Assembly (NCBI GenBank): GCA_900315845.1
Contig: OOHK01000003.1
Location: forward strand, 1 to 44,783
DNA length: 44,783 bases
Origin: Candidatus Avelusimicrobium luingense
Lineage (GTDB): Bacteria; Elusimicrobiota; Elusimicrobia; Elusimicrobiales; Elusimicrobiaceae
Direction: 5' to 3'
Part shown: positions 10,490-44,264 of the stretch, one piece after another
How the letters are laid out: each line of letters starts with the position of its first letter
Numbering within the stretch: position 1 is the first letter of the stretch
Translations under genes and position numbers: made by a program
The notes under the pieces: model-generated
Seen by the model: the letters and a program-made list of their open reading frames with translations, nothing else
Database searches by the model: none
Told to the model about the DNA's origin: nothing

Positions 10490-11038
10490 CTATTTCATTT
10501 CGTAATAGCGTGCGCTCCACTGCGTTAACTTCAAATCATTGGTACCCCATACTTTCGTGCAAAAACTTCCGGCGGTACTTACATAGTTGGTGCGTTCTAC
10601 ACAATAAATTTTCTGATCCAGGGTATTGGTAGGATCTACATGCACAAAGATAAACCCGGCACCCAAATAAGGCCCCGTTTTGAAAAATGCCGAACTCAAT
10701 ACAAAACTATTAGCGGCATTGTTAATACTTAACTCCATATTTTCGTTGGTGCGTATAGCATCCGATGACAACGTACTTACACCAACGACAGGGGAGGTGG
10801 TGCTTTGCAAATTATCAAAGCCAAGAGATAATTCTTCAAAAGAATTAGCATACGTTCCGTTGGCCATATGGTAGGCTTCTTGGGCAGTAGCCAAACTTCT
10901 TACCGAAGTAAAAAGTTGTGCCGCGCGGCTTTTCCAAACCGCTTTTTGGTATTGCGGTAAGGCGACGGCTGATAAAATACCGATAATAAGAACAACGACT
11001 AATAATTCAATAAGCGTGAATGCCTGATTATTTTTCAT
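10490..11038 (-). CDS. Type IV pilin-like protein (pilin 1)
   Basis: A 182-residue prepilin. A short leader MKNNQA precedes the processing site and the helix [18 protein letters not shown], with Glu5 of the mature form present. [14 protein letters not shown] completes the conserved module. Position -1 is Ala, not the usual Gly. The C-terminal domain (EAYHMANGTYANSFEELSLGF..., with a CVERTNY...SFCTKV cysteine pair) is distinctive. AAGGAG precedes the ATG, and a TATACT box (minus 11083-11078) suggests its own promoter. No assembly genes are nearby. Major pilin, minor pilin or type II pseudopilin cannot be told apart from sequence. Confidence 0.88.
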   Translation of the reverse strand: MKNNQAFTLIELLVVVLIIGILSAVALPQYQKAVWKSRAAQLFTSVRSLATAQEAYHMANGTYANSFEELSLGFDNLQSTTSPVVGVSTLSSDAIRTNENMELSINNAANSFVLSSAFFKTGPYLGAGFIFVHVDPTNTLDQKIYCVERTNYVSTAGSFCTKVWGTNDLKLTQWSARYYEMK

Positions 11039-11121
11039 ATCCGGGCTCCTTTTTATAAGTAGGGATATCCTTTAACAAGTATAGCAAAAACGAATCAAAA
11101 CATTTGCGTTTCTTTTATGAC

Positions 11122-12510
11122 TTATTTTTTGGAAGAAGAAGTGCGGTCTTTGAAAATGCGTGCGTCCACCAAGCGCTTAAACACACGGCCGCGGTCTTCA
11201 AAACTTTTGAATTGGTCGAACGAAGCGCACGCCGGAGAGAGTAGCACAATATCGCCTTTTTGCGCGTTTTTCATGGCGGCGTCCACGGCGTTTTCCAACG
11301 TTTCGCAACGCACCACCGGATAGCCGTTTAGTTCGCGCTCGATTTTATCCATCGCTTCGCCGATAGTTAACACGCGCTTGCAGTAATCTTTCAAATAGGG
11401 TAACAGAATTTCATACGAAGCGCCTTTATCGCGCCCGCCTAAAATCAGCCAGATATTATTACACTTATCAAAACTTTTTAAGGCGGTAATCGTAGAATCT
11501 AAATTGGTGGCTTTGGAATCATTAACATACACAACACCGCGGTGATACGCAAATTGCTCAATGCGGTGTTCCATCGCCTTAAAATTATCAAACACGCGTT
11601 GTATCGTATCCGACATGACGCCCGCACTTAAAGCCATCAGCGCAGCCGCCATGGCATTTTCTATATTGTGCATGCCTTTTAATTGCGGAGGACGCAGTTG
11701 TTGCCCTTCGCTGAAAATCAGTTCATCTCCGTCAAAAAACACATTGGTTTTAAGCAAATGTTTGGGATAGGTGGAAAAGGCAAGCACCCGGCTTTTGGCT
11801 TTTTCGGCCAGTTCGGCACACGACACATCCGCCCCGTTGACCACAAAAATATCATTAGAGCGTTGATTCTTGCAGATTTTGCCTTTGGCTTTGATATAGT
11901 TGCGCATGCCGCCATGATGTTCCAAATGATCCGGCGTAATGTTTAATAAACACGCCACATGCGGACGGAAATAGGTACTATCTTCTAATTGGTAACTGGA
12001 AACTTCTACCACAATATCATCACCGGGTTGTACTTTATCCGCGATATGAGAAATCGGGTTGCCGATATTGCCGCAAACAAACACATTGCGCTTGGGCAAT
12101 TTTTCGGCGGCATCTGCCTTCAAAATTTCACCGAGCAATGCCGTTGTAGTTGTTTTCCCGTTGGTACCGGTAACGGCAAACACGCGTACTTTTTTAGGCA
12201 TAAAGGCAATCGCCACTTCCAACTCGCTAAATACCGGAATTTGGCGTTTGCGGGCTTCTAAAAGTACCGGGGAATGCGGCGACATGCCGGGGCTTTTTAT
12301 CCAAAAATCACAGGCAAATAATTTTTCGCTGTGCCCGCCGGTCTCCACTTCTATACCGGGAGAAAAAGTTTTAACGTGCGCCACAGGGGCATCTTCGCTA
12401 ATTAACACCGGGATATGATGCGCGGCAAGCAGTTCGGCTACCGCACGCCCGCTTTTACCCAAACCGAGCACCCCCGCTTTTTTATGTTGCCATACGGCTA
12501 ATTTAAACAT
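11122..12510 (-). CDS. murD: UDP-N-acetylmuramoyl-L-alanine--D-glutamate ligase
   Basis: Adds D-glutamate to UDP-MurNAc-L-Ala in the cytoplasm. The 462-residue protein has the N-terminal GLGKSGRAVAELL motif, the ATP loop VTGTNGKTTTTAL, NITPDHLEHHGG, MEHRIEQFAYHRGVVYVNDSKATN (the MurD-type catalytic block) and LSPACASFDQFKSFEDRGRVFK at the C-terminus, all diagnostic. The start has GGGAG upstream and overlaps the murE stop by 8 nt, so it is coupled to murE. Third gene of a tilS-murE-murD minus-strand set. Confidence 0.95.
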   Translation of the reverse strand: MFKLAVWQHKKAGVLGLGKSGRAVAELLAAHHIPVLISEDAPVAHVKTFSPGIEVETGGHSEKLFACDFWIKSPGMSPHSPVLLEARKRQIPVFSELEVAIAFMPKKVRVFAVTGTNGKTTTTALLGEILKADAAEKLPKRNVFVCGNIGNPISHIADKVQPGDDIVVEVSSYQLEDSTYFRPHVACLLNITPDHLEHHGGMRNYIKAKGKICKNQRSNDIFVVNGADVSCAELAEKAKSRVLAFSTYPKHLLKTNVFFDGDELIFSEGQQLRPPQLKGMHNIENAMAAALMALSAGVMSDTIQRVFDNFKAMEHRIEQFAYHRGVVYVNDSKATNLDSTITALKSFDKCNNIWLILGGRDKGASYEILLPYLKDYCKRVLTIGEAMDKIERELNGYPVVRCETLENAVDAAMKNAQKGDIVLLSPACASFDQFKSFEDRGRVFKRLVDARIFKDRTSSSKK

Positions 12511-13951: not shown

Positions 13952-13963
13952 ATTTATATGGTA

Positions 13964-14686
13964 TCAAATTAGGCGGGCAATTTCCTGAGCCATTTGCGCT
14001 AAATGCTGTTTGATTTGCGGTTGCTTGGTTTCCAACAACGGCAGTAACGTACCGCGCACCCAGTTGCGGGTGAATTTATCATCAAAGTTGGTTTGGTCGG
14101 TAACATAGGAAAGACCATTCTGTTTAACATAGGTTTCCGTTTCTTCGCGCGTGATACAGAGCAAAGGCCGGACGATTTCTACCGACGAAGTTAACGGACG
14201 GCGCACCGGAATTCCCGTTAGCCCTTTGGCTTTCGTGCCGCGCAAGAGATTAAGCAAAATGGTTTCAACGTGATCGTCCAAATGGTGACCCAGCGCCAGT
14301 TTGGTGGCCCCCCATTTGCGAGCCACTTGCGACAATTTTTGATAACGCGCTTTACGCGCGGCGTGTTCGGGGGACAAATTATACTCACGTGCAATTTTTT
14401 TCACATCGGCTTTTTCTACAAAAAATTCAATGTGATGGGCGGCGCAAAACTGTTTACAAAAGGCGGCATCTGCCGTAGCCGCGCGCCCGCGCAAGCCGTG
14501 ATTGATGTGCACAGCCGCTAACCGGAAATGTTTTTCGCGGGACAGATAATTCAAAAAATGCAACAGGCAAACAGAGTCCGCCCCGCCGCTAAAGCCGACG
14601 AGAACCGCATCTTTTTGGTTGATAAGCCGTGCACAAAAAGCACGCATTTTGGGCAATACAGATGCATTAAAACTTTTTTTTGTCAT
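13964..14686 (-). CDS. tilS: tRNA(Ile)-lysidine synthase (short form)
   Basis: Modifies C34 of tRNA-Ile(CAU) to lysidine so that it reads AUA. The PP-loop motif VGFSGGADSVCLLHFL, the HINHGLRG block and GHHLDDHVETILLNLLRG are diagnostic of TilS. From the ATG at 14686 the product has only 240 residues, the catalytic N-terminal domain with a short tail, against about 430 in E. coli; short versions exist in other phyla. The frame runs on upstream to 15088 but there it is antisense to the response-regulator gene. No clear ribosome-binding site; a TTATAC box lies 8 nt before the ATG. Confidence 0.9.
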   Translation of the reverse strand: MTKKSFNASVLPKMRAFCARLINQKDAVLVGFSGGADSVCLLHFLNYLSREKHFRLAAVHINHGLRGRAATADAAFCKQFCAAHHIEFFVEKADVKKIAREYNLSPEHAARKARYQKLSQVARKWGATKLALGHHLDDHVETILLNLLRGTKAKGLTGIPVRRPLTSSVEIVRPLLCITREETETYVKQNGLSYVTDQTNFDDKFTRNWVRGTLLPLLETKQPQIKQHLAQMAQEIARLI

Positions 14687-14732
14687 ATAAAAAAGTATAA
14701 TAAATAATAAGAGAACAAAGGAAACGAAAACT

Positions 14733-15098
14733 ATGAAAAAGAAAATTTTAATTGTGGAAGATGAACCCGCTATCGTAGAACTCCTACGCATTGTGTTGGT
14801 ACGCGCCGGGTATGATGTATATACCTGCCAAAGCGGACGTGACGCTATTGCCATGATGAAACAAGTCATGCCGCATTTAGTGATTTTAGATGTAATGCTC
14901 CCCGGATTAGACGGTGCGAGCATTGTGCGCATTATGCACGAAGACGAAATTTTATCGTCCACTCCGGTTATTGTGTCGTCAGCCTTGTTGGAATCGGAAA
15001 AAATGTTCATGCCGTATCCGCAAGTTAAAGGCTTTTGCGCCAAACCGTTTGTGCTGAAAGACTTTATTGCCAAAGTCAAACGCGCCATCGGCGACTAA
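14733..15098 (+). CDS. Single-domain response regulator (CheY-like)
   Basis: A 121-residue receiver domain without an output domain. The acidic pocket E9-D10-E11, phospho-acceptor D53 in LVILDVMLPGLDG, Ser82/83 in the Thr/Ser position and K104-P105 are all present, so it should be phosphorylated by a histidine kinase encoded elsewhere. Possible roles include pilus or motility control by protein-protein contact; nothing local decides this. AAAGGAAA precedes the ATG, with GTATAAT near 14694-14700 as a -10, and an intrinsic terminator follows, so it is a single-gene unit divergent from tilS. Confidence 0.92.
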   Translation: MKKKILIVEDEPAIVELLRIVLVRAGYDVYTCQSGRDAIAMMKQVMPHLVILDVMLPGLDGASIVRIMHEDEILSSTPVIVSSALLESEKMFMPYPQVKGFCAKPFVLKDFIAKVKRAIGD

Positions 15099-15186: not shown

Positions 15187-15214
15187 TTGACAAATCAAAA
15201 AAAAAAACGATAAT
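15187..15214 (+). promoter_or_regulatory. Probable promoter of pilin 2
   Basis: A consensus -35 TTGACA (15187-15192), a 16-nt A-rich spacer and GATAAT (15209-15214), about 30 nt before the ribosome-binding site of the pilin gene. The 11-A run in the spacer could vary in length by slippage and so change promoter strength. Confidence 0.6.
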
Positions 15215-15250: not shown

Positions 15251-15769
15251 ATGAAGAACAAACAAGCATTTACGCTTATTGAACTATTAGTAGTTGTTTT
15301 GATTATCGGCATTTTAGCCGGTGTGGCCTTGCCGCAATACCAAAAAGCAGTATGCAAAAGCCGAGCAACGGAAGCCATGAATATGGTGCGCGCTATTGCC
15401 AATGCACAAGAAGTGTATTTTATGGCCACCGGCGATTATACAAACGATATCAATGAATTAGATATAGAAATTTCAAGCAATCTCATAGGAACGTGGCCCA
15501 ACCCCTTATTTGAAAACAAATATTCCTATGCCTGCTTTGAAAAACGTGCTTGCGGGGCTATAGCATCCAGCCCAAATCTTCCCGCTTTTGAAATTGATTT
15601 AGAAAATAAGGGAAATTATGGAAATTCCGGAAAGTTTTATTGCCACGTCGCAGATGCTATTCACAAAAACAATCTGGCCAAACAAATCTGCCAAAGTTTA
15701 GGTAGAGAAGACATCGCTTTCGGGCAACAATACGGATTCAATGCCGGAAAGTATTTTATCTTAAACTAA
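15251..15769 (+). CDS. Type IV pilin-like protein (pilin 2)
   Basis: A 172-residue prepilin starting MKNKQA before [18 protein letters not shown], with Glu5 present and Ala at -1. [20 protein letters not shown] follows. The C-terminal domain has the family's YFMATGDYTNDINELDIEIS segment and several cysteines (for example CFEKRACGA and FYCHVADA). Its first 45 coding bases of the conserved module differ at a single position from pilin 3, while the 3' halves are unrelated. AAAGGAG supports the start, and a good promoter precedes it. It ends 2 nt from the convergent birA stop with no terminator between. Confidence 0.88.
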   Translation: MKNKQAFTLIELLVVVLIIGILAGVALPQYQKAVCKSRATEAMNMVRAIANAQEVYFMATGDYTNDINELDIEISSNLIGTWPNPLFENKYSYACFEKRACGAIASSPNLPAFEIDLENKGNYGNSGKFYCHVADAIHKNNLAKQICQSLGREDIAFGQQYGFNAGKYFILN

Positions 15770-20016: not shown

Positions 20017-21033
20017 ATGTCTTTTAAGTCTGCTACCGAAAAATTAGCCCCCATCAATAACATTTGTCTGATGATCCTAGCCGGGACGGCGGCTACCGCC
20101 GTACTCGTCTACACTAAAAGTATTTTAATGCCGTTTATCATTGCGCTTTTTATTTCCACCTTGGCCGGCGCATTGGCGGAAAGACTGAAACGCAAATGGC
20201 ACGTTCCATATACGTTGGGGCTTATCATCAGTTTTGTAGCGTTTTTAGCGTTGGTATCGGCAGCGGTATTGTTTATCTCAAACTCTATTGAAAGTTTTAT
20301 CCACGGCGCGGATATTTACGCCGACCGTTTGAACGATTCGTTAGATTGGTGTTTAGGCCATGCGCAAAAATACGGGGTGAACATCAACGCCCAATTCGTC
20401 TTGGAAAATGCGGCCAAGCTGCCTGTGTTTAACTTCGTCAAAAGTTTAGGCGGAACTTTAATGAGCATTATTACCAATTTAATGCTGATTACGCTATTTG
20501 TTATCTTTATTTTCATGGGCAAAGCCACTACCGACAAACCCTCTCTCGTCGGTCATATCCAACAGCAAATTGCGTTTTATCTGATGATTAAAATTTTCGT
20601 TTCTTTATTGGCGGCGGTATGCACGTGGTTGGTGCTTGCCTCGGTCAAAACCGAACTGGCTTCCATGTTAGCCGTACTGACTTTTGTACTGAATTTTATT
20701 CCCAACATCGGGCCTTTTATTTCCACCGTACTGCCGATGCCCGTATTATTTTTGCAATACGGGTTTGATTGGCGCATGGTGCTTGTGCTTGTTTTACTGA
20801 CTACTATTCACTTTGTTATCGGTAACATTTTAGAAACAAAATGGTTAGGAAAAGGAATGGATTTAGACCCTATTATCGTGCTGGCATGCTTAATTTTCTG
20901 GGCACTTGTTTGGGGCGTGATGGGGGCTTTACTCGCCGTACCGCTTACGGCCATTATCAAAATGATTTTTGAGAAAAACGAAACCACCCGACCGCTGGCT
21001 AATTTGCTGGCCGGGAAATACGCATTCAAATGA
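20017..21033 (+). CDS. AI-2E family transporter (PerM-like permease)
   Basis: A 338-residue polytopic inner-membrane protein of the AI-2E/PerM/TqsA family with about eight hydrophobic segments. The C-terminal block FIPNIGPFISTVLPMPV and NILETKWLGKGMDLDPIIVLACLIFWALVWGVMGALLAVPL are the family's most conserved parts. Members export diverse small molecules, so the autoinducer label should not be taken literally. It is the first gene of an operon: its last four bases overlap the ampG start. Given the rest of the operon, a role in handling wall-derived or other small metabolites is possible but not shown. TAGGAGA supports the start. Confidence 0.85.
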   Translation: MSFKSATEKLAPINNICLMILAGTAATAVLVYTKSILMPFIIALFISTLAGALAERLKRKWHVPYTLGLIISFVAFLALVSAAVLFISNSIESFIHGADIYADRLNDSLDWCLGHAQKYGVNINAQFVLENAAKLPVFNFVKSLGGTLMSIITNLMLITLFVIFIFMGKATTDKPSLVGHIQQQIAFYLMIKIFVSLLAAVCTWLVLASVKTELASMLAVLTFVLNFIPNIGPFISTVLPMPVLFLQYGFDWRMVLVLVLLTTIHFVIGNILETKWLGKGMDLDPIIVLACLIFWALVWGVMGALLAVPLTAIIKMIFEKNETTRPLANLLAGKYAFK

Positions 21034-22328
21034 AAAAGACAACTTCCCCTTGGGGTTTTATCCCCACTTTATATTTAGCCGAAGGATTCCCCTATATCGT
21101 TATTAACACGGTATCGGTTTTGTTGTATGCAGACTTAAAACTCCCCAATGACGCTATCACGTTTTGGACGGGGTGGCTGTATTTACCGTGGATACTTAAA
21201 ATGTTTTGGAGCCCTTTGGTAGATGCGCACTCTACCAAACGCCGGTGGCTGTTGGGGGCGCAAACGTTGCTTTCCGCGGTGTTTTTGGCCATTGCGGGGA
21301 TAGTAGGAATTATTACCTTCTTGCATGCACAAGAAAGCGGCCTTCAAACTATTTTTACACTTACCTTATTTGGTTTCTTTTTCGGTGCATTTGCATCCGC
21401 CACTTTGGATATTGCGACCGACGGATATTATTTGTTTGCACTCACGCCGACAGACCAATCTAACTTTGTTGGGGTGCGTACCATTTTCTATCGCTTGGCG
21501 ATGATTTTAGGTAGCGGAATTTTCATTTCGCTGACCGGGGCTTTAGCCGAGCGCGGATTAGTAGCCAAACCATATAATTGGGTATGCTTATTCGGCTTTT
21601 TAGGCATTTTGTTTTTAGTGTTTGCCGCGTTTCATGCATACATTTTACCCCGGCCGGAACAAGACAAACCCGTTTCGTCTTCCACCGCCACCGCGTGGAA
21701 AGAAGCGTTCGGTTCCTACTTTACACAAAAAAACATTCTCTATATTTTGCTATTTATTCTGGTGTACCGTTTCGGTGAAGCATTGCTGGAAAAAGTCGTT
21801 CCGCTATTCTTATTAAAACCCGTTACCGACGGTGCCCTCGGCTTAAGCATGGAAAAAGTGGGGCTTATTAAAGGCACGCTGGGACTCGGCGGCATTATCG
21901 TAGGCAATTTACTGGGCGGATGGTTGCTCGGCAAATATGGTTTCAAAAAATGTATTTGGCCGTTTGCGTGCTTACTTGTACTGCCGAATTTCTTTTATGT
22001 TTATTTGGCCGTTGCCAAACCGGGAATTGCCGTAATTGCCACCTTAATTACGTTAGAGAATTTCGGCTATGGGTTAGCCATGATGGCGCTAACCGTATTT
22101 ATTATGTATGTCTCGCAAGGGGCTTATAAAACATCCCACTATGCCATTTCAACCGGTATTATGGCCTTAGGTATGATGGTGCCGTCTATGTTATCCGGCA
22201 AAATGCAAATGGCCCTTGGCTACGAACAGTTTTTCTGGGTAACGGCATTGATCAGTTTATGTTCATTTGCCGTCGTACCGCTTTGTTTCAAAATCAACGT
22301 ATTAGATGAAGCGGAAAAACAAAAATAA
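21030..22328 (+). CDS. ampG: AmpG-like muropeptide permease (MFS)
   Basis: A 432-residue major-facilitator protein with 12 or more hydrophobic segments. The start GFIPTLYLAEGFPYIVINTVSVLLYADLKL and the loop WLYLPWILKMFWSPLVDAHSTKRRW are characteristic of AmpG, which imports GlcNAc-anhydroMurNAc-peptides. DIATDGYYLFALTP is another conserved block. It is translationally coupled to the permease upstream and followed one base later by murQ, then anmK and nagZ. That is the complete sugar branch of peptidoglycan recycling, which strongly supports the assignment. Confidence 0.88.
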   Translation: MKKTTSPWGFIPTLYLAEGFPYIVINTVSVLLYADLKLPNDAITFWTGWLYLPWILKMFWSPLVDAHSTKRRWLLGAQTLLSAVFLAIAGIVGIITFLHAQESGLQTIFTLTLFGFFFGAFASATLDIATDGYYLFALTPTDQSNFVGVRTIFYRLAMILGSGIFISLTGALAERGLVAKPYNWVCLFGFLGILFLVFAAFHAYILPRPEQDKPVSSSTATAWKEAFGSYFTQKNILYILLFILVYRFGEALLEKVVPLFLLKPVTDGALGLSMEKVGLIKGTLGLGGIIVGNLLGGWLLGKYGFKKCIWPFACLLVLPNFFYVYLAVAKPGIAVIATLITLENFGYGLAMMALTVFIMYVSQGAYKTSHYAISTGIMALGMMVPSMLSGKMQMALGYEQFFWVTALISLCSFAVVPLCFKINVLDEAEKQK

Positions 22329-22329
22329 T

Positions 22330-23214
22330 ATGAAAAATTTGTCGCCAACCGAACAAATCAATGCTAGCACTACGCACTTAGACCGCCTTACTCCGCGGCA
22401 GTTGGCGCGTGTATTAAATGCAGAAGATTTCAATGCGGCACGCGCTGTCAAAAAAGCAAACCGCGAAATTGCAGCCGCTATTTCTTTAGCCGCAAAAACC
22501 TATCAAACTAAACATAAAATTATTTTTGTAGGAGCAGGCACCAGCGGGCGGCTGGGCGTATTGGAAGCCGCCGAGTGCGTGCCCACGTTCAGCACATGCC
22601 CGACGGAAATTTTTGGAATTATCGCCGGCGGAAAACCGGCTATGTTTCGCGCGCAAGAAGGGGCGGAAGATAACGCTAAACAAGGGGCGGAAGATATCCG
22701 CAACACCGCCGCGCAAGATGATTTTATTATCGGCATTACGGCAAACGGTCACACGCCCTATGTGTTAGGCGCGTTGCAACAAGCAAAAAAATTACGCGCC
22801 CATACCGCACTCATTTCATGTAATCCCGAGGCCGACACATCCCATGCGGATATTCATATTTATTTATGCACCGGGCCGGAAGCATTAAGCGGTTCTACAC
22901 GCTTAAAAGCGGGAACCGCCACTAAAATGGCCTTAAATGCTATTACCACCGGAGCCATGGCTTTGTGCGGAAAGACATACGGTAATTTAATGGTGGATGT
23001 TAAACCTACGAATAAAAAATTGGTAGCGCGTGCCGTGCGGCTAATTGAACAAATCGCCCGAACCGATGAAAAAACCGCGGCTAAATTATTGAAAAATTCC
23101 GGCGGAAAAGTCAAAACGGCTATCGTAATGCACCGCAAAAATTTATCACGCCAAGAAGCACAAAAAAAATTAAACCGCGCCAACGGTTTTTTGGGGGAAA
23201 TAATAGATGACTAA
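22330..23214 (+). CDS. murQ: N-acetylmuramic acid 6-phosphate etherase
   Basis: Removes the lactyl ether from MurNAc-6-P to give GlcNAc-6-P. The 294-residue SIS-domain protein has VGAGTSGRLGVLEAAECVPTF (carrying one catalytic Glu), RAQEGAEDNAKQGAED (carrying the second) and GSTRLKAGTATKMALNAITTGAM. One usually conserved stretch, ASGRTPYV, reads ANGHTPYV here. An ATG at 22306 inside ampG would add eight basic residues; the ATG at 22330 gives the family start MKNLSPTEQ. Its 3' end overlaps anmK by 8 nt. Confidence 0.94.
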   Translation: MKNLSPTEQINASTTHLDRLTPRQLARVLNAEDFNAARAVKKANREIAAAISLAAKTYQTKHKIIFVGAGTSGRLGVLEAAECVPTFSTCPTEIFGIIAGGKPAMFRAQEGAEDNAKQGAEDIRNTAAQDDFIIGITANGHTPYVLGALQQAKKLRAHTALISCNPEADTSHADIHIYLCTGPEALSGSTRLKAGTATKMALNAITTGAMALCGKTYGNLMVDVKPTNKKLVARAVRLIEQIARTDEKTAAKLLKNSGGKVKTAIVMHRKNLSRQEAQKKLNRANGFLGEIIDD

Positions 23215-24289
23215 ACTAGCACTGGGACTCATGAGCGGCACAAGTGCCGACGGTTTAACCGTCTGCGCAGTGCAGATTCGTCCGTTTCGTGTGCTATTTT
23301 TTCATAACTATAAATATACTCCGCAATTACAACAAAAACTATTACACGCCTACGAATTAAACGCCGCGCAACTCAGCGAACTTAACTATGAACTCGGTGC
23401 ATTATATGCCAAAACAGTCGCGCGATTTTTAAAACAATTTCATCTTTCTCCTAACGATATCAGCGTTATAGGCTCGCATGGTCAAACTATCGTACATGCG
23501 CCTAACGCAAAAATTCCGCATACCTTGCAACTGGGCGTGCCGGAATTTATGGCCGCTAAATTTAATGTGCCGGTAGTGAGTGATTTTCGTGCGAAAGATA
23601 TGGCACTGGGCGGGCAAGGCGCGCCGTTAATACCGTTTTTTGATGAATATATTTTCGGACAGGGAAAGCCGAAAATATTACTTAATTTAGGCGGTATAGC
23701 CAATATATCGCTCGTCGGTAAAAAAGTAAAAACGCAAGGGTTTGATGTGGGGCCCGCTAACAGTTTAATTGATTTATGCGCACAACTTTTATTTCAAAAA
23801 CCGTTTGATAAAAATGGTGCTCTTGCCGCCAAAGGAACGCCGGACAAAGCCCGTGTAAAAAATTTACTCACTCAACCGTTTTTTAAGCAAAAGCCGCCCA
23901 AGAGTTTAGACAAAAACGATTTCGGGCGTGCGTATTTAGCCCGTTATTTCGGGCCGATTATCAACGCATACGACCAAATTTCCACCGTCACGTATTTTAC
24001 AGCCGCCGCGATAGCCGAGCAAATTGGCCGGTTTATTCCGCACCGCTACCAACAAGAAATGATTGTGTCCGGCGGCGGATGTTATAACAAAACCTTGCTT
24101 GCGTTTTTGCATGAAGAACTTCCGCATATAAAAATAGTTTCTTCGCAAGATTACGGTATAGATCCGCAAGCCAAAGAAGCCGCGGCGTTTGCGCTGTTTG
24201 CATGGCTGGCGTTACACCGAAAAATCAATCACTGCCCGTTGGCTACCGGCGCCAAACGTGCCTGCATATTAGGGAAAATTACACTATGA
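23207..24289 (+). CDS. anmK: Anhydro-N-acetylmuramic acid kinase
   Basis: Phosphorylates and opens 1,6-anhydroMurNAc to MurNAc-6-P, the MurQ substrate. The 360-residue ASKHA-fold kinase shows LMSGTSADGL at the N-terminus, GSHGQTIVHAP, DFRAKDMALGGQGAPLIPFFDEYIF, LLNLGGIANIS, DVGPANSLID and VSGGGCYNKTLLAFL, all diagnostic. The GQGAP block carries the catalytic-base region. It overlaps murQ (8 nt) and nagZ (4 nt), indicating coupled translation. Confidence 0.96.
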   Translation: MTKLALGLMSGTSADGLTVCAVQIRPFRVLFFHNYKYTPQLQQKLLHAYELNAAQLSELNYELGALYAKTVARFLKQFHLSPNDISVIGSHGQTIVHAPNAKIPHTLQLGVPEFMAAKFNVPVVSDFRAKDMALGGQGAPLIPFFDEYIFGQGKPKILLNLGGIANISLVGKKVKTQGFDVGPANSLIDLCAQLLFQKPFDKNGALAAKGTPDKARVKNLLTQPFFKQKPPKSLDKNDFGRAYLARYFGPIINAYDQISTVTYFTAAAIAEQIGRFIPHRYQQEMIVSGGGCYNKTLLAFLHEELPHIKIVSSQDYGIDPQAKEAAAFALFAWLALHRKINHCPLATGAKRACILGKITL

Positions 24290-25701
24290 ACATTGCCCGC
24301 TTAATTCACCCCGGTTTTTGGTTTGATAAAACCCCGCTAGAGCAAGCCCTCGCCTTAGCCAAACGCGGGGTGGGCGGGTTTTGTATTTATGGCGGCACAC
24401 GCGAAAAAATAACTGAATTTACAAAAGCGGTACGTCAAGTTTCTCCGTTAGAAAATTTACTCATTTCTGCCGATTACGAAGACGGCCTTGGGCGCTGGTT
24501 GCCAGACGCGCCGCTGCTTCCGTCCAACATGGCTTTGGGGGCGGCGAACGATGAAAATTTAGCGTATGAAAAAGGTCTTTTAACGGCGCATCAAGCGCGC
24601 AGTTTAGGCGTAGATTGGGTCTTTGCTCCTGTTTTAGATTTAGCCGATAATGCGCTTAACCCGATCGTCAATACGCGCGCCTTTAGCAACGATCCGCAAC
24701 AGGTTATCCGCCTCGGACGCGCGTTTTTACGCGGTCTTAACGACGGCGGGGTGTTATCCAGCATAAAACATTGCCCGGGACATGGCGACACCACCACCGA
24801 TTCGCATGTATCTCTCCCCGTTTTACATAAAACAAAATCTCAATTGCTCGCGCGTGAATTGGTACCATTTTCTGCCTTGTTAGATGCTACCGACAGCGTA
24901 ATGTTTGGGCATTTACTTATCCCGGAAATTGACGCTGAAAACCCGGCTTCTCTTTCGCCAAAAATCGTAAAAGAAATTGTACGGGGCCAATTCCGTTACG
25001 ACGGGTGCATACTCACCGATGCGCTTTTAATGAAAGCCATCGGCGACGAAAAAACCGCCGCCTTAAAAGCCTTACAAGCCGGGGCGGACATTTTACTTGT
25101 TCCGCAAAATCCGTCTGAACTTTTAACGTTTTTGGAAGAAACAAAAATATCACCGGAAATTATTTCACGTGCACTCCGTCATCAAGACGTCTTATGTAAA
25201 AAAATTCAAACGCGTCCGGCAATGACTTCTCCCGTTCTTTGGCACACCGATTTTCCGCGCCGCACGGCCCAAAAAGCCATCGTCAAACGCGGGGATTTAT
25301 CGTCGTTCAAGCCCGGGCAAACTGTTTCATATATCGTCGTAGGAGATGACGGAAAGACTTCCGTTACACCTTTGCTCAACACGTTAAAGAAAAACGGTGT
25401 GAACGTAATTCCTTTTACAGAGCGCGCAGAAAATTTACTCATTATTTGTCTGCGCCGCTATCAGGCGTTTGCCGGAAAAATTGCGTTGGAAGAAAACGAT
25501 ATTGTCCGTCTAAAAAAAGCGGTAGAAAATGCGGAAAATTGTGTAAGCGTTTTGCTTGCCAGCCCGTGGGCGTTGCCCAAAGAACTCAAAATTAAAACTT
25601 CGTTATATACGTTCAGCCCCGCCCCCGAATTTCAGGAAACCGCGGCCGAAATTTTGTTAGGACAACGAACGGCGCAAGGCTCTTTGCCGGTGACTTTATA
25701 A
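24286..25701 (+). CDS. nagZ: Beta-N-acetylhexosaminidase, GH3 (NagZ-like)
   Basis: Cleaves GlcNAc from anhydromuropeptides. The N-terminal GH3 barrel holds DYEDGLGRWLPDAPLLPSNM, VDWVFAPVLDLADN, IVNTRAFSNDP, the catalytic His loop KHCPGHGDTTTDSH and the nucleophile Asp region GCILTDALLMKAI. There is no signal peptide, fitting cytoplasmic action on material imported by AmpG. At 471 residues it is longer than E. coli NagZ (about 340) and carries a C-terminal extension resembling the GH3 C-domain seen in two-domain NagZ proteins. The ATG at 24286 overlaps the anmK stop (ATGA). The frame is open to 24202, but that would overlap anmK by 88 nt. Confidence 0.93.
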   Translation: MNIARLIHPGFWFDKTPLEQALALAKRGVGGFCIYGGTREKITEFTKAVRQVSPLENLLISADYEDGLGRWLPDAPLLPSNMALGAANDENLAYEKGLLTAHQARSLGVDWVFAPVLDLADNALNPIVNTRAFSNDPQQVIRLGRAFLRGLNDGGVLSSIKHCPGHGDTTTDSHVSLPVLHKTKSQLLARELVPFSALLDATDSVMFGHLLIPEIDAENPASLSPKIVKEIVRGQFRYDGCILTDALLMKAIGDEKTAALKALQAGADILLVPQNPSELLTFLEETKISPEIISRALRHQDVLCKKIQTRPAMTSPVLWHTDFPRRTAQKAIVKRGDLSSFKPGQTVSYIVVGDDGKTSVTPLLNTLKKNGVNVIPFTERAENLLIICLRRYQAFAGKIALEENDIVRLKKAVENAENCVSVLLASPWALPKELKIKTSLYTFSPAPEFQETAAEILLGQRTAQGSLPVTL

Positions 25702-25703: not shown

Positions 25704-27518
25704 TTACCACCATGTTTTTACGGTAGCGTTAGTGGATGCGGCAACTGTTTTTTCGTCCGGAAGGACTAAAAACCGCGCTTGCGAACCGATACAAATTTCC
25801 CGTGCGTTTGTTTCTACACAATAGGAAATACTTTCATCTTTTCGGCCTGTATATCCCGTATCTTCATACACACGACCGTCTTGCGTTTGTTTAAGTCCCC
25901 ACGTTGCCCGAACGGTAATTCCGGGCAGCGAAAATGTATCCCCGGGCCACACTTCGTCAAACAAATGGTCTCCTGACAACGGCAATATCAGTTCCGCGCG
26001 GGAAATCCCCAACGCCGCCAAAGCACGTTGTATTTTCTCCGGCGAAATTCCCGCATTAAACACAATCGCTGTTTTGCCATTTGTACGAACAATAGCGGCA
26101 CGGTTATTCCACTCGCTAAGCAAGTAGGCCGTTGGACGATTTTGATACCAACGCCCGCCGAAAAATGCTACCAGCATCACGAACAAACAAGGCACAAATA
26201 AGCGACGTGCAAATGTTTTATGGGGAAGTTGGCTGATCCAAAAAAGCCCCACATAATAAGCCACTATACTTCCCGCGTTCCACGCCGTAGCCGAAATAGA
26301 AGATAATGAAAAAGAAGCGAAAAATTCCACCAATGTTTGGAAAATTTGTAATCCCCATAAACACGGATAATAAAGAATTACTCCCACGTGTAACGATGCT
26401 AAAAACGCATACAAAAACCCAAGCCCCATTAACACGGAAGCCATCGGCACGAGTATCATATTAGACACTAGCCCCATTAAGGAAACGCTATAAAATACGT
26501 TCGTGAACACAGGAAGTAAAACAAGTTGGCAGGAAAGTGTCGCCAGAAAAATCTGCGCAAAAAACCGCACTGTTTTTGACCACGAAGCAGGTATGCGGTA
26601 ATTATTCAAACAAATTACAATCGCAAGCGTGGCCAAAAAAGACATTTGAAAACCGGTATCAAATACGGCAGACGGCGTAATCCCCAAAATAATCAAACAC
26701 GCCAAGAGCAAACCCTGAAACACACCACTGTTTCTACCCAGAAAATAACCCACGCAGGCACAGCATGTCATCAGATATGCACGCAACAACGGGGCGTCCG
26801 CTCCGGCTACCAACGTATAAATGCCTGCCGTCAACAAAGACACAATCAGTAACGGGCGGCGGCTAAAGCCTAATGCAAAACCCAATGCAAGCGTAAGCAA
26901 TGTTACAAACCCGACGTTCCCGCCCGAAGCCACCAGCAAGTGTATTGCCCCGCTTTGCTGAAAAGCCGCATATAAATCGGCCGGAAATTCCCCGCGTTCC
27001 CCCAACAGGATACCACCTGCTATACCGGCAATTTGAGGTGGGAAAGAATCGGTCAGTTCCGTTAATATCTTTTGACGTACCGCACGCACGGCACGCCAAA
27101 ACCACGCAGCCTTTTTAACAACTGTTACCTGTGAAGTTTTAACTTCGGCATAGGTATGCTTTTGAGCCAGATAAGAACGCCAATCAAAATTCCCCGGGAT
27201 ATCTATTCCGTACGGTTTTTGCAAGCGTCCGGTTAGTTGAAGCGTATCTTTCCATTGGGGCGAAAAATTACCGATGCGCGCATATACACGCCCGGTTGCT
27301 TTCTGTCCGTTCACAGAAAACACATCTATAAAAACATTTTGTGTATCTTTTTTAATTACCGGGAAAGTAACTGCTTGACCGGTTAAAGTTACCTCTTTTT
27401 GCGGCAAAAAACGCGAAACGTCCTGCGGGGAAATGGCAGGACGATAGAACAAAGATAAACCAATCACAACCGCTACTACCAGCCACAACAGCGGCCGCTT
27501 ATATACCGACGGATGCAT
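25704..27518 (-). CDS. comEC: ComEC/Rec2 competence channel, reduced C-terminal domain
   Basis: Inner-membrane channel for single-stranded DNA uptake during natural transformation. Its 604 residues comprise two N-terminal membrane segments, an OB-like region (VTLTGQAVTFPV...VYARIGNF...LQLTGRLQKP), then the competence domain beginning LGERGEFPADLYAAFQQSGAIHLLVASGGNVGF and a long series of membrane helices. The usual C-terminal metallo-beta-lactamase domain is not recognisable. About 150 residues remain (RAAIVRTNGKTAIVFNAGIS...LILPLSGDHLFDE) without the HxDHDH metal motif. The start overlaps the recR stop by one base (TAATG). It faces nagZ with a 2-nt gap. Confidence 0.9.
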   Translation of the reverse strand: MHPSVYKRPLLWLVVAVVIGLSLFYRPAISPQDVSRFLPQKEVTLTGQAVTFPVIKKDTQNVFIDVFSVNGQKATGRVYARIGNFSPQWKDTLQLTGRLQKPYGIDIPGNFDWRSYLAQKHTYAEVKTSQVTVVKKAAWFWRAVRAVRQKILTELTDSFPPQIAGIAGGILLGERGEFPADLYAAFQQSGAIHLLVASGGNVGFVTLLTLALGFALGFSRRPLLIVSLLTAGIYTLVAGADAPLLRAYLMTCCACVGYFLGRNSGVFQGLLLACLIILGITPSAVFDTGFQMSFLATLAIVICLNNYRIPASWSKTVRFFAQIFLATLSCQLVLLPVFTNVFYSVSLMGLVSNMILVPMASVLMGLGFLYAFLASLHVGVILYYPCLWGLQIFQTLVEFFASFSLSSISATAWNAGSIVAYYVGLFWISQLPHKTFARRLFVPCLFVMLVAFFGGRWYQNRPTAYLLSEWNNRAAIVRTNGKTAIVFNAGISPEKIQRALAALGISRAELILPLSGDHLFDEVWPGDTFSLPGITVRATWGLKQTQDGRVYEDTGYTGRKDESISYCVETNAREICIGSQARFLVLPDEKTVAASTNATVKTWW

Positions 27519-30327: not shown

Positions 30328-31182
30328 TTAAAAATCTACTTCTACCGACATGGAAAAGAAAGTCTTGCGCGTTTCTTCGCGCCGCGGTTCAAACACTTCT
30401 ACACCGCCGGAAAACGAAAAGGCTCCTTGTTTAAGTGTTAACCCCGCGCTAACGGCTACCGCCGGGCGGCCTGTTTCGGCATATTCATACCGTGCCGCCG
30501 ATGCATAAGGCGTTAGCAAATACGTCGGGTAACTGACACGCAAGGCCGTAGCCGAACGCAAAAACCCTTGTACCACCGCCGTCATATACGGGATATCTGC
30601 CCAACTAAACGAAATACCGGGTTGGACTTGGTTATTATATTGTATCACTTTATGCCACGCGGCTTTCAAGTTCCAGGGACCCACTTCCGTTCCACCCTCT
30701 ACCCGGACGTTTGTTTCTACTTGTTTGTACGGTTCATCCAACCAAACACCTATGCTGTCTATGCGGGTGCGGGTACGGCCTTGTCCGATACGCACATCTA
30801 TAAACGGATCTTTGAAAATACCATGGCGGAAAAAAGGATGATATCTCCCCCCCGCAAAATAACTGACGCCCCGGTTTCCTACCGCTTCGGGCAAAAAATA
30901 CCCTTGCATATATACACGCCAATCATCGGAAAAATCATACGAGCCGCGCAAACCGTAACGATAAGTGGCACCTGTTTCTTCCACATCGGGAGCATCCGAT
31001 TGACGGTAAAATTCATACGACGGAGTAAAAATAAAATTGTTATCTAAATCCCACACGTACGTTCCGCGTACGGCAGAATAACCGCGTTCGCCGTTTACAC
31101 CCAAAAAACTGAGCTGCCCGTAGCATAACGCACACGGGCAGATCAGTAAGATGAAACTTAACAACGCAGTTTTAAGTTGCAT
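30328..31182 (-). CDS. Probable outer-membrane beta-barrel protein
   Basis: A 284-residue protein with a signal peptide (MQLKTALLSFILLICPCALCYG). It has many alternating, aromatic-rich strands (TYVWDLDNNFIFTPSYEFYRQ, YRYGLRGSYDFSDDWRVYMQGYF, FSFSGGVEVFEP) and ends in Phe (SMSVEVDF), the usual signal for outer-membrane assembly. No family was recognised and no transport motif is visible; with about 12 strands it could be a small porin or structural barrel. Its start overlaps the upstream deoxyhypusine synthase-like stop by one base (TAATG), so the two are translationally coupled. Confidence 0.75.
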   Translation of the reverse strand: MQLKTALLSFILLICPCALCYGQLSFLGVNGERGYSAVRGTYVWDLDNNFIFTPSYEFYRQSDAPDVEETGATYRYGLRGSYDFSDDWRVYMQGYFLPEAVGNRGVSYFAGGRYHPFFRHGIFKDPFIDVRIGQGRTRTRIDSIGVWLDEPYKQVETNVRVEGGTEVGPWNLKAAWHKVIQYNNQVQPGISFSWADIPYMTAVVQGFLRSATALRVSYPTYLLTPYASAARYEYAETGRPAVAVSAGLTLKQGAFSFSGGVEVFEPRREETRKTFFSMSVEVDF

Positions 31183-32246
31183 TATTTTTTGCGGGCTTTG
31201 GCGATTTTAGCGTCTTCGTCTTGTAAGAATTTTACATAGTTAGACGCTTTGCGTTTTTTCCACGCCCCTTTGTGATAACCGTAACCGATAATCAGCGGGA
31301 TAAGCGTGGTGCATTCGCCATACACCATTTGTTCAAGCGCGGTAGAAACTTTCCCCCAAGAGGAGGCTTCTTTTAAGGTAGAACCGGAGAGTGCCCCGTC
31401 GCGCACGTCGGCTACCGTAATTTGTACCGCATATTTGTGCATCGGAATTTCCGCGCCTAAAATTTCAGCGGCCACTACGGTATCTTGCGCAAAGTTTTTC
31501 GGCACGCCGCCCGACCACATCATAAGGCCCGTTTCTTTGGCTTTAATTTTGATTTTGGTCAGTTCCAAGAAATCTTTGGCACTGTCAATGGACACATGGG
31601 CACCCGGATGTTCCGTTTGGTGCGCTACAAAGCCGAACCCGGCCGAGCAGTCGCTAAACGCAGGAACAAATATCGGCACACCGTGTTTATACGCGTTATA
31701 GACGATAGAATCTTTACCTTTTTTATTTTTTTCCAACCATTTACCCATTTCCCAAATAAATTCGCGGGAAGAATAAGGGCGGGGCTCTAAATAATTGCAG
31801 ATTTTGTGGATGGTTTCATCGCAATTTTTGAGTTGGTCTTCGTCAATATAGGTGTCGTAGATGCGGTCAATGTGCAAATCGCGCAGCAAGTTATCGTCTT
31901 GATTGTAAGGAGTACCGATATAATGTTTATATCCTAAGGCTTCAAAGAAGTCTTGGTCCACGATATTGGCTCCGTTGGAAACGATAGCATCTACCATGTT
32001 GTTTTGAATCATATCCACCACTACTTTTTTCATACCGGCGGATACTAAAGACCCAGCAATACACAAAATAACCGAGCATTTCTTATCGGAAAGCATCATA
32101 TTATATATTTTGCTTGCTCTGGCCACTTCGCGCGACGCATAGGCCATACCCTCAAACGCTTCTACCATGGGGACCACATTGTATTTTTTCATATCAATGT
32201 GTTTGATGGTGTTTTTGAGGAAGTCTTTTTTTGTCAATTTTGCCAT
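31182..32246 (-). CDS. Deoxyhypusine synthase-like protein
   Basis: A 354-residue member of the deoxyhypusine synthase family, NAD-dependent enzymes that transfer the aminobutyl group of spermidine. NAD-site segments IAGSLVSAGMKKVVVDMI, VSNGANIVDQDF and FSDCSAGFGF are present, and K299 in EASSWGKV aligns with the catalytic lysine of the eukaryotic enzyme (EAVSWGK). Bacteria lack eIF5A, so another acceptor is expected; bacterial homologues are associated with homospermidine-type polyamine synthesis or related aminobutyl/guanidinobutyl transfer. It starts a minus-strand unit with a barrel protein and the DoxX-like protein, and is divergent from glyA. Confidence 0.88.
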   Translation of the reverse strand: MAKLTKKDFLKNTIKHIDMKKYNVVPMVEAFEGMAYASREVARASKIYNMMLSDKKCSVILCIAGSLVSAGMKKVVVDMIQNNMVDAIVSNGANIVDQDFFEALGYKHYIGTPYNQDDNLLRDLHIDRIYDTYIDEDQLKNCDETIHKICNYLEPRPYSSREFIWEMGKWLEKNKKGKDSIVYNAYKHGVPIFVPAFSDCSAGFGFVAHQTEHPGAHVSIDSAKDFLELTKIKIKAKETGLMMWSGGVPKNFAQDTVVAAEILGAEIPMHKYAVQITVADVRDGALSGSTLKEASSWGKVSTALEQMVYGECTTLIPLIIGYGYHKGAWKKRKASNYVKFLQDEDAKIAKARKK

Positions 32247-33600: not shown

Positions 33601-33633
33601 AAAAACACCCCGCTAGCTACGGGGTGTTTTTTA
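33601..33633. terminator. Bidirectional terminator between glyA and pilin 4
   Basis: A 13-bp stem (AAAAAACACCCCG at 33601-33613 with 33621-33633) with a 7-nt loop. The right arm includes the stop codon of the minus-strand pilin gene. Confidence 0.9.
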
Positions 33634-34134
33634 CGGATATATCCAACGCAAATAATCGCTACCCGTCTCGCTCGGGGTTGCCAGGCCCGTTTCAGCCTTA
33701 CATATTTTATTAACCAAATGGGAAGTGTCTGTCGTATAACCGATACATTGTTGCTCCCCTTCCCCTTCGGAAAAAGCCATCCCTTTTCCTCTTATCACCA
33801 TATAACAACTCACTCCCCCGGTTTGCCATAAAACGCAATGCCCCCACGAGAAATTGCGATGCGGGCGATTAACGCCTGCATTAAAATCATCTGTTTCACT
33901 GATGTATGCGGGTGTATCCACATCCAACTCATCATAAGAATGTGCATAATCGCCATTGTTCATATGATATATCTGTTGGGCTTGCGCCAAGGTATGCGCC
34001 AACGTTCTGGCTTGTACGAAACGACTTTTCGCTACTGCTTTTTGATATTGCGGTAAAGCCACACTCGCCAATATACCGATGATTAGAACGACTACCAATA
34101 ATTCTATGAGTGTAAATGCTTTTATGTTTTTCAT
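33631..34134 (-). CDS. Type IV pilin-like protein (pilin 4)
   Basis: A 167-residue prepilin with leader MKNIKA, then [18 protein letters not shown], Ala at -1, Glu5 present. The conserved module continues [51 protein letters not shown]. The C-terminal domain has four cysteines (GHCVLW, VSCYMV, QQCIGY, NKICKAE), permitting two disulfides. It lies 33 nt downstream of pilin 5 on the same strand and shares the longest 5' nucleotide identity with it, so the two form a tandem, probably co-transcribed pair. AAAGGAA precedes the ATG. Confidence 0.88.
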   Translation of the reverse strand: MKNIKAFTLIELLVVVLIIGILASVALPQYQKAVAKSRFVQARTLAHTLAQAQQIYHMNNGDYAHSYDELDVDTPAYISETDDFNAGVNRPHRNFSWGHCVLWQTGGVSCYMVIRGKGMAFSEGEGEQQCIGYTTDTSHLVNKICKAETGLATPSETGSDYLRWIYP

Positions 34135-34167: not shown

Positions 34168-34611
34168 TTACAATTTGATAATCCAATAACTGCTATCCAA
34201 CGATCCGCCGGCAGGAGTTACATTAAACACCGTCTTGCAGTCCTTTTCGGTTCCGCGACAATAAAGCGTACCGGCCGGGTTTCCTTCAAAATAAGGAGTG
34301 CTTCCGTCCTTTGTAATAGCATAACAACAAGCACCATCGCAATTATGACAATGAAACCGATAAAACCCTTCGGGGATTTCTATATCCAACTCGCTTATAT
34401 CGGTAGTACGTTTTCCGTTAGCCATTTCATAAACTTGCTGGGCTTGATGGATTTTTTGGAGCATAAGAATGGCTTCCGTAGCGCGCGATTTCTTCACGGC
34501 TCTTTGATATTGCGGCAACGCCACGCTCGCCAATATACCAATGATTAAAACTACTACCAATAATTCTATGAGTGTAAAACCGTTTGCTCGGGTTGACGTT
34601 ATTTGTTTCAT
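34168..34611 (-). CDS. Type IV pilin-like protein (pilin 5)
   Basis: A 147-residue prepilin. The leader MKQITSTRANG is longer than in the others and ends in Gly, the canonical residue at -1; it is the only one of the eight with Gly. [18 protein letters not shown] follows, then VALPQYQRAVKKSRATEAILMLQ. The C-terminal domain includes YEMANGKRTTDISELDIEIP and a cysteine-rich patch (FHCHNCDGACCYA, LYCRG, KDCKT). The ATG at 34611 follows GGGA; the frame extends upstream to 34674 without support. TATAAT on the minus strand (34653-34648) may drive this gene and pilin 4. It is divergent from ruvA. Confidence 0.88.
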   Translation of the reverse strand: MKQITSTRANGFTLIELLVVVLIIGILASVALPQYQRAVKKSRATEAILMLQKIHQAQQVYEMANGKRTTDISELDIEIPEGFYRFHCHNCDGACCYAITKDGSTPYFEGNPAGTLYCRGTEKDCKTVFNVTPAGGSLDSSYWIIKL

Positions 34612-34694
34612 ATATTCCCTTTTTCTACTAGTAAAAATCTTGGTTATATTATACAAAAACCGTCCAAACAGCAAGGACCGATTTAGACCAATTA

Positions 34695-38710: not shown

Positions 38711-41633
<2,923 letters not shown>

Positions 41634-41723: not shown

Positions 41724-42176
41724 CTACAACTGTTGTGCGTATGCACACATTTTTGCATCTGAAGGTTGCGAGGTGCTGTATGTTCCGCAAATAATGTTTG
41801 TTTCTCCGGGATTGACATAAATATAATAGCGAGTCCCTTGCGGAAGCCGTTGAGCAATAGCCCCCGCCGCCTCCCCGCTCGTGTGCCGGACATCATAGGC
41901 AAAATCCGTTGTTTTGGTTCGTGCACGTCCGGAATATGTATTTGTCACTCCGCGAATTTCAATATCTAAATCATCCAGTGTTTGGGCATATTCGTTATTG
42001 GCTAAATAATAGGCTTCGTTGGCTTTGGCAATTTGACGCACTAATAATACTGCTTCACTCAAACGCGCCTTTTCTACCGCTTTTTGATATTGCGGCAAGG
42101 CTACGGCCGCCAAAATACCGATAATCAGTACAACTACCAATAACTCAATAAGTGTAAATGCTTTTGTGTTTCTCAT
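41724..42176 (-). CDS. Type IV pilin-like protein (pilin 7)
   Basis: A 150-residue prepilin with leader MRNTKA before [18 protein letters not shown], Ala at -1, Glu5 present. The module [51 protein letters not shown] follows. The C-terminal half resembles pilin 3 ([35 protein letters not shown]), so pilins 3 and 7 look like a subfamily although they lie 22 kb apart. AAAGGAA lies about 8 nt before the ATG. It is divergent from the small lipoprotein at 42232, and their -10 boxes overlap. Confidence 0.88.
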
Positions 42177-42405: not shown

Positions 42406-42409
42406 TCAT

Positions 42410-42460: not shown

Positions 42461-42482
42461 ATTTTTACCAAAAGAAAATTGA

Positions 42483-43102: not shown

Positions 43103-43124
43103 AATTTAATAAAGGAAAATAAAA

Positions 43125-43331: not shown

Positions 43332-43342
43332 GAGGTTGAAAC

Positions 43343-43693: not shown

Positions 43694-43714
43694 TTTAGTA
43701 AGTGCAGGCAAAAA

Positions 43715-43743
43715 CAGCCACGTGAAAGCGTGGCTGTTTTTTT
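43715..43743 (+). terminator. Intrinsic terminator of the infC-rpmI-rplT operon
   Basis: CAGCCACG (43715-43722) pairs with CGTGGCTG (43729-43736) around TGAAAG, followed by seven T. It may also work on the other strand (AAAA upstream) for pilin 8. Confidence 0.92.
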
Positions 43744-43760
43744 ATGAAAAGTTATACTTG

Positions 43761-44264
43761 TTAGCGTTGATAGATTTTATAAACGCGACACGCACCCAAC
43801 ATACAACTGCTTTGCGAATGGAAAGTCCCTAGGCTGGCGCAGAGTTTATCATACCGCGACCCTTGCACGGTGGTAGCCGCCGTGCAAAACACACCACCGG
43901 GGGTCATCGTGTCATTCAGATAATGAATAATATATTCGTTTTTCAAAGTGGTATTGTTGGAACATTGTACTTCTTGCTGTCCATACAAAATACAACGGCC
44001 CCAATCAAAATTAGCCTGATTGCCCGCAATACTGGTGGCCGGGACATCAATAGATAATTCGTCAAAATCGGTGGCGTAAGATCCTGTTGCCATATAGTGC
44101 GCCTCGTTGGCATCGGCGAGACTTTTGGTTATCGCCATTAAATTGGAAAACCGGCTTTTATCTACCGCTTTTTGATACTGAGGGAGCGCGACCGATGCCA
44201 AAATACCGATAATCAAAACTACCACTAACAGTTCTATTAACGTAAATGCTTGATTGTTTTTCAT
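43761..44264 (-). CDS. Type IV pilin-like protein (pilin 8)
   Basis: A 167-residue prepilin with leader MKNNQA before [18 protein letters not shown], Ala at -1, Glu5 present. The module [51 protein letters not shown] follows. The C-terminal domain has six cysteines (GRCILY, VQCSNN, VFCTAA, KLCASL, SSCMLGACR); its GRCILYGQQEVQC block aligns with GHCVLWQTGGVSC in pilin 4, so these two share a C-domain type. GAGGAG supports the ATG, and TTAACA with TATAAA 17 nt later upstream gives a plausible promoter. A candidate small RNA lies further upstream. Confidence 0.88.
   Translation of the reverse strand: MKNNQAFTLIELLVVVLIIGILASVALPQYQKAVDKSRFSNLMAITKSLADANEAHYMATGSYATDFDELSIDVPATSIAGNQANFDWGRCILYGQQEVQCSNNTTLKNEYIIHYLNDTMTPGGVFCTAATTVQGSRYDKLCASLGTFHSQSSCMLGACRVYKIYQR

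Follow-up and report, generated by a model that had tools for sequence, protein, structure and literature searches.

The 44,783-nucleotide stretch of contig OOHK01000003.1 of Candidatus Avelusimicrobium luingense analyzed here (the window) contains eight pilin genes that lie apart from any recognized pilus assembly gene. Analysis of the genome from which the window comes (the source genome, GCA_900315845.1, whose contigs carry labels in the style C1-C8) revealed about 100 dispersed genes for type IVa-like pilins, many of which have a long A or T run in the promoter. We propose, with a probability of about 0.6, that these pilins are assembled by one machine and that many of them are switched by slippage in their promoters.

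Pilin repertoire and assembly machinery

The assembly consists of 1,463,713 bases in 8 contigs, in which a search with the N_methyl profile identified 125 places, far above the needs of one type IV pilus (T4P) locus. The core family comprises 103 pilins with a common N-terminal module, while the other 22 of the 125 matches are minor pilins of the assembly locus, divergent pilins, one truncated copy and one gene seen at two contig ends. The core pilins are 147-200 amino acids long (median 176) and total 54 kb of coding sequence, or roughly 4% of the genome. Most of them are solitary (in 82/103, the nearest other such gene is over 1.5 kb away), and a terminator-like hairpin is found within 70 nt past the stop codon in 50 of the 103. 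Closed reading frames of more than 100 amino acids account for 122 of the 125 matches; two others run off contig ends and one is truncated. An earlier note on the window, made from its sequence alone, had proposed a dispersed pilin repertoire on the basis of the eight genes. The repertoire is far larger than could be seen there, and the genome holds 103 core pilins rather than only these eight beside an ordinary T4P locus.

Remnants of the N-terminal module without a head were observed at C6:193589 and just behind the pilin at C5:4402. In addition, the same 49-residue pilin start, with few bases differing, is found at two contig ends (C4:142439 and C7:61), which means either that the assembly broke at a repeat or that the genome has two nearly identical copies.

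Pairwise comparison of all core pilins gave identities of 96.0% in protein and 51.1% at third codon positions for the 24-residue module. Thus, the module is held by selection on the protein and not by recent copying. Its four-fold sites are 39.1% identical, compared to 27.7% expected from base composition. Recent gene conversion of the module was considered and is ruled out by the same third-position and four-fold values. Such constraint would suit a segment that forms the core of a filament. The heads belong to a single family, as 100 of 103 are linked at E < 1e-6, with identities to the best paralogue from 27 to 73%. An alignment of 23 pilins from several species shows no variation at Glu5 or at two cysteines (C146 and C160). 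Conservation of the core helix and Glu5 alongside divergent heads would be expected to allow one subunit to replace another in a filament.

The structure model of pilin 1, one of the eight window pilins, has a predicted local distance difference test score (pLDDT) of 82.8 and a predicted pilin fold nearest to those of Neisseria pilins. Its best VIA-align rows are type IV pilins, and Foldseek alone is weak (E 3.9e-3). The features of type IVa pilins are accordingly found in the sequence, as an N-terminal methylation motif with Glu5, and in the model, as a predicted long N-terminal helix, beta-sheet head and C-terminal cysteine pair. In their prepilin leader, Glu5 helix and two-cysteine head, the pilins resemble the PilE-type type IVa major pilins of Neisseria, which were also the best sequence and fold matches in the PDB. 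They differ from these in being about 100 complete, dispersed paralogues with diverged heads, whereas the usual picture of a type IV pilus has one major pilin and a few minor ones.

Counterparts of pilB, pilC, pilD and pilQ, which the earlier note had wanted sought, were all found outside the window. The only secretin/PilB/PilC-type locus is at C2:139-150 kb and contains a secretin, a PilB-type ATPase with an MshEN domain, a T2SSF platform protein and minor pilins. At its PilN-like end the match is slightly under the cut-off; PilO and PilP were not recognized at this locus, where two unmatched proteins occupy their positions. Two more ATPases, at C2:164 kb and C7:117 kb, are assigned to PilT by family and size, which would provide for retraction, and only one prepilin peptidase was found (C4:139 kb). 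Because there is a single secretin/PilB/PilC-type locus and a single prepilin peptidase, the approximately 100 core pilins probably feed one machine. A separate Tad-type pilus locus with an ATPase, a secretin, a T2SSF protein and TadE is also present (C8:182-190 kb).

Promoter runs and turnover of pilin sites

Sorting of the sequences upstream of the pilin genes revealed two recurrent promoters, each with variants. Class A reads TTGACA-AATC-A(n)-C-GATAAT, and class B reads TTGACA-TCG-T(n)-G[C/T]-TA(A/G/T)ATT. In 329,581 bases of the source genome, 37 of the 38 A or T runs of at least 9 sit 20-110 nt upstream of a pilin start, and the whole genome has 41 such runs, of which the same 37 are pilin-linked, compared to 0.3 under an even spread. 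In 36 of the 37, TTGA is found no more than 16 nt ahead of the run, which is mostly followed by a -10-like box, so that the homopolymer lies between the -35 and -10 boxes. Of the four remaining runs (genes read by eye), two are in coding sequence, one is ahead of a peptidase-like gene, and one is in a terminator that is itself ahead of a pilin, just past the 110-nt limit. Across 37 genomes of the genus, the pattern TTGAC-N(1-6)-T9 has 340 forward-strand matches compared to 19 for the reversed pattern, and its A9 form has 113 compared to 0. Ten of the 14 pattern places listed for genome G012 were examined; each lies ahead of a pilin, and the stretches around them contain no further run of at least 9.

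In G012 and G014 (L207, L210, L213, L245-L255), the start codon is found few bases behind the -10 box, and many pilin mRNAs may thus be leaderless. A leader peptide like YQKxLPAGKNA recurs among these genes.

The lengths of the runs vary within these promoters. The 18 A runs of the source genome have lengths of 9, 10, 11 and 12 in 2, 4, 9 and 3 cases, respectively, A11 at C8:32819 being an example, and the 19 T runs have lengths of 9, 10, 11, 12 and 14 in 3, 5, 9, 1 and 1 cases. Runs of 6-8 are found in further class B-like promoters. With -10 boxes assigned by us, the spacer is 16 in 8 of 17 class A promoters, and the other spacers of both classes range from 8 to 19. A spacer of 16 is the commonest in the source genome, G012 and G014, although it is built as 3+11+2 in the source genome and 2+12+2 in the other two. 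In the G012 frame TTGACT-[CT]G-T(n)-GATA, n is 9 in one, 10 in three and 12 in six promoters. In stretches of G014 that were chosen by pilin matches, runs are found at 12 of 17 pilins and have lengths of 12 (nine cases), 11, 16 and 17; the T11 promoter has one extra flank base and one T fewer, so its spacer is again 16. Thus, while the promoter frame stays constant, tract length changes from copy to copy and from species to species. Such a pattern would be expected if a slip-prone spacer varied around a working length.

Several observations weigh against slippage switching. The expectation of 0.3 pilin-linked runs in the whole genome, which assumes that runs are evenly spread, ignores their preference for intergenic DNA. 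The strict T pattern is absent from 6 of the 37 genus genomes, though all of them have many pilins; G028, among these six, has an TTGATTCG-T11 promoter that falls outside the strict pattern. Runs of at least 9 are limited to 37 of the 103 core pilins and one of the eight window pilins. At thresholds of 8 and 7, 48 and 63 of the 103 are included, and the 55 core pilins without a run of at least 8 must be under other control or have lost the switch. By the same assignment of -10 boxes, only 9 of 32 class B promoters have a spacer of 16, and the G014 runs of 16 and 17 are accompanied by the altered -35 boxes TTGATT and TTGCTT. Length differences were seen between copies and between species, never within one strain. 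Comparisons of the source genome with its relatives, of G012 with six genomes and of G012 with G014 yielded no run-length polymorphism at the same locus, because hardly any pilin site is common to two genomes even at about 95% DNA identity. At the sole site with the same head in two species (the source genome and G031), both runs are A11. Plain selection for a working promoter could also account for the mode at spacer 16.

This sole site, at C8:261547, illustrates how pilin content differs among relatives. G031 has a pilin with the same head, while G004 has a pilin with the same module and another head. Among the matches listed, inspected by eye, 26 genomes have both flanking genes on one contig, and in 21 of these the two genes are 43-144 bases apart, too close to accommodate a pilin. 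In G029 a stretch resembling the 3' end of the C8:261547 gene persists, which by our reading suggests loss. An alignment to G011 spans the site, where no open pilin copy was found by the pilin finder, a sequence pattern that misses divergent or broken copies. Similarly, the site of pilin 2 of the window, between a CheY-like open reading frame (ORF; 14733-15098) and birA, is empty in RUG11187, RGIG9917, RGIG6754 and RUG11790, and it holds another pilin sequence in RUG129. The RUG129 pilin (L042:8560-9300) has an inverted-repeat-like sequence, which by eye resembles repetitive extragenic palindromic (REP) elements, where the -10 box and leader are expected. G012 and G014 differ in pilin content at all four sites compared, whereas their common flanks are mostly 94-97% identical (one 2.4-kb piece is 88% identical). 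Judging from these sequence comparisons, the occupancy of pilin sites is turning over fast.

At two places, L207:4190-4930 of G012 (about 40 bases) and the C8:32819 region of the source genome (29 bases), a pilin cassette is flanked by direct repeats of the local terminator, which looks as though it was duplicated when the cassette inserted. The upstream and downstream flanks of the core pilins were also compared for the repeats or recombination sites that integron-like or transposon cassettes would have; a common stretch of at least 14 bases is found in 2 of the 103 core cassettes (29 and 20 bases), compared to 2 of 611 shuffled pairs; thus, flanking repeats are not general.

Comparison of copy numbers across related genomes, also envisaged in the earlier note, showed that the expansion marks the Elusimicrobiaceae. 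The closest UvrB relatives (90-96%) are from rumen and faecal metagenome-assembled genomes (MAGs) of Elusimicrobium or Elusimicrobiaceae. Besides the source genome, 36 genomes of the genus were tallied and have between 22 and at least 112 N_methyl matches, compared to 3-11 in the 24 genomes tallied from a different family of this order; the high per-genome counts of these multi-genome tallies, like those below, are lower bounds. Counts in single genomes are at least 150 in RUG129 (238 candidates), 145 in RUG11187, 70 in the termite Elusimicrobium Ehx436, 56 in RUG11046, 53 in UBA1202, 25 in fen_1175 and 6-8 in three MAGs titled RIFOXYA2, RIFCSPLOWO2 and NC_groundwater. In a phylum sample of 149 genomes, tallied by eye, 30 genomes of the genus have at least 35 matches, and 13 from other genera of the family have 12 to at least 51, including G104, a single contig of 1.6 Mb, with at least 51. 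Of the remaining 106 genomes, 105 have 0-17. The exception, G158 of family f10, has at least 51, compared to 0-14 in the other sampled members of that family, and is possibly a separate pilin expansion. Herlemann reportedly described in 2009 a large number of pilin-like genes in Elusimicrobium minutum, so that the pilin expansion itself may be partly known.

Proposed mechanism and alternative explanations

In the mechanism that we propose, each gene would be a small cassette composed of a promoter, a leader, the near-identical core-helix module, a variable head and often a terminator. In about a third to a half of the cassettes, a long A or T run lies between the -35 and -10 boxes, where replication slippage would lengthen or shorten the spacer, so that the promoter nears or leaves its working length, most often 16. 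Such events would switch single pilins on and off at random and give clonal cells different pilus surfaces. The conserved core helix and the sole assembly locus suggest that subunits may be mixed and matched within one filament. Over evolution, cassettes would be gained and lost at intergenic sites and heads exchanged, and the benefit may lie in choosing the surface to attach to or in evading pilus phages or host antibodies. The most extended form of this proposal is a genome-wide combinatorial pilus, with about 100 single-gene cassettes that feed one machine, dozens of them with their own homopolymer switch, clonal cells that build pili from different subunit mixtures, and cassettes that appear at and disappear from intergenic sites, sometimes with the local terminator duplicated. 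We regard this extended form as tentative, with the odds somewhat against it.

Parts of this proposal are found in known systems. In Neisseria pilE/pilS, many variant heads are joined to a conserved N-terminal part, with one expressed locus fed by silent partial copies. The pilins described here likewise have variant heads on a conserved N-terminal part but differ in that nearly all copies are complete with a start codon and many have a recognizable promoter. Silent, promoterless partial copies of the pilS type were considered and rejected, given that all but 3 of the 125 matches are complete frames and many have promoter-like sequence. In the vlp promoters of Mycoplasma hyorhinis, the A tract is placed between the -35 and -10 boxes. 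The vlp genes encode a family of surface lipoproteins, each with a homopolymeric A tract in its promoter, according to a review (PMC10502178). By analogy, a family of surface-protein genes whose own promoters contain homopolymers may follow the same logic of slipped-strand switching. The pilins are, however, not lipoproteins, are dispersed instead of clustered, are many more in number and have both A and T versions, and their switching is proposed by us. In Helicobacter pylori, the promoter of the adhesin gene sabA is tuned by the length of a T run, which ranges from T5 to T22 in natural strains; this run adjoins the -35 box outside the spacer and serves one gene, whereas dozens of genes have a run in the spacer here (PMC4081817).

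The runs may instead be a fixed promoter architecture, such as a rigid or curved spacer or the mark of one regulator or sigma factor, so that the pilins are co-regulated and not randomly switched. The clustering of run lengths at 10-12, the spacer of 16 as the commonest in three genomes and A11 at both copies of one pilin would all follow from this explanation. It accounts less well for A and T forms that have different flanks and -10 boxes, for the purity of the runs, for spacers well off 16 in otherwise similar promoters, and for the fact that all but 4 of the 41 long runs in the genome sit ahead of a pilin. We consider a fixed architecture unlikely, while giving it serious weight. A further alternative is a decaying or selfish family, in which most copies would have spread by duplication and have no individual function. 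The truncated copies at C6:193589 and behind C5:4402 and the fast gain and loss of copies at sites are as such a family would have them, yet 122 of 125 matches are closed frames, the module is conserved in protein while its third bases have diverged, and the two cysteines are invariant across species. That explanation is therefore most improbable.

The earlier note had listed antigenic variation and DNA uptake among the possible uses of the pilins. Surface variation is strengthened by the slip-prone promoters and the fast turnover of sites, while DNA uptake gained little. If uptake were the main role, the pilins would be DNA-binding minor pilins of a competence pilus that feeds a ComEC channel. 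A ComEC-like gene is indeed present in the window, ComP_DUS is over its cut-off in two of the eight window pilins, and a competence role was proposed for the pilins and comEC of the related Endomicrobium (PMC8809381). The ComP_DUS matches, however, span residues 27-67 and 28-97, which comprise only the helix and the start of the head, and a DNA receptor leaves a hundred diverged heads unexplained. Moreover, once pilin promoters and starts had been masked, no 9-, 10- or 12-mer was strongly overrepresented in 330 kb, with weak excess only, and no word like a DNA uptake sequence (DUS) stood out; one frequent 12-mer reads, in our interpretation, as the pilin coding motif MANG. DNA uptake as the main role is thus very improbable.

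The literature searched, whose coverage excluded most subscription journals, contained no account of a pilin expansion with slippage promoters in Elusimicrobiota and nothing on pilin promoter runs or site turnover. A gut bacterium with a reduced genome seems to combine paralogue expansion with promoter slippage on a scale unmet in that literature. If true, few families of a single structural protein that are switched by slippage would be larger, and the pilins would offer a testable system for the drivers of pilus diversity in the gut, such as host antibodies, pilus phages and the choice of attachment surface.

Pilins and neighboring genes of the window

The pilin genes of the window and their putative promoters are as follows.

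10490..11038, minus strand: core pilin 1, 182 amino acids
11078..11098, minus strand: class B-like promoter of pilin 1 with a short run, TTGATT-CG-T5-GC-TATACT; putative function
15187..15214, plus strand: class A promoter of pilin 2, with TTGACA (15187-15192), AATC, A11 (15197-15207), C and GATAAT (15209-15214); proposed slip-prone switch
15251..15769, plus strand: core pilin 2, 172 amino acids
19267..19734, plus strand: core pilin 3, 155 amino acids; head kin to pilin 7
33631..34134, minus strand: core pilin 4, 167 amino acids; adjoins pilin 5 on its downstream side, possibly on the same transcript
34168..34590, minus strand: core pilin 5, start corrected; head kin to pilin 2
38711..39241, plus strand: core pilin 6, 176 amino acids; head kin to pilin 1
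41724..42176, minus strand: core pilin 7, 150 amino acids; head kin to pilin 3
43761..44264, minus strand: core pilin 8, 167 amino acids
44294..44316, minus strand: class B-like promoter of pilin 8 with a short run, TTAACA-TTG-T6-GC-TATATT; putative function

All eight exceed the cut-off of the Pfam profile N_methyl and are real pilins with a common N-terminal module, as the earlier note had read them. The near-identity that it extended over 35-40 residues is confined to about 30 mature residues; in the alignment, invariant columns run from F7 to K36, with divergence beyond. Two of its three pairs of related C-terminal domains were recovered, pilins 3/7 (44% over 113 amino acids) and 1/6 (28% over 143), while 4/8 is weaker (32% over 74), and a further pair was found in pilins 2/5 (39% over 97). 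The start of pilin 5 is most likely the ATG at 34590 rather than the TTG at 34674.

The absence of pilus assembly genes from the window was borne out, in that there are none among the 30 window ORFs scanned, which are not all of its ORFs, and genome-wide searches for T2SSE, secretin and Peptidase_A24 gave no match inside it. The scanned ORFs are mostly housekeeping genes, such as murC/D/E, uvrB, ruvAB, ligA and dnaX, amid which is the gene for the ComEC-like competence channel protein (25704-27518, minus strand). The 374-residue, tilS-like ORF at 13964-15088 (minus strand) overlies, with its first third, the response-regulator receiver (CheY-like) ORF at 14733-15098 (plus strand), and because of this overlap the true tilS start is probably further in. 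The protein encoded at 31182-32246 (minus strand) is far over the cut-off of the model for 1,9-bis(guanidino)-5-aza-nonane synthase, a relative of deoxyhypusine synthase. Finally, a row of cell-wall recycling genes at 21030-25701 (plus strand) encodes an AmpG-like transporter, MurQ, AnmK and a beta-N-acetylhexosaminidase-like protein.

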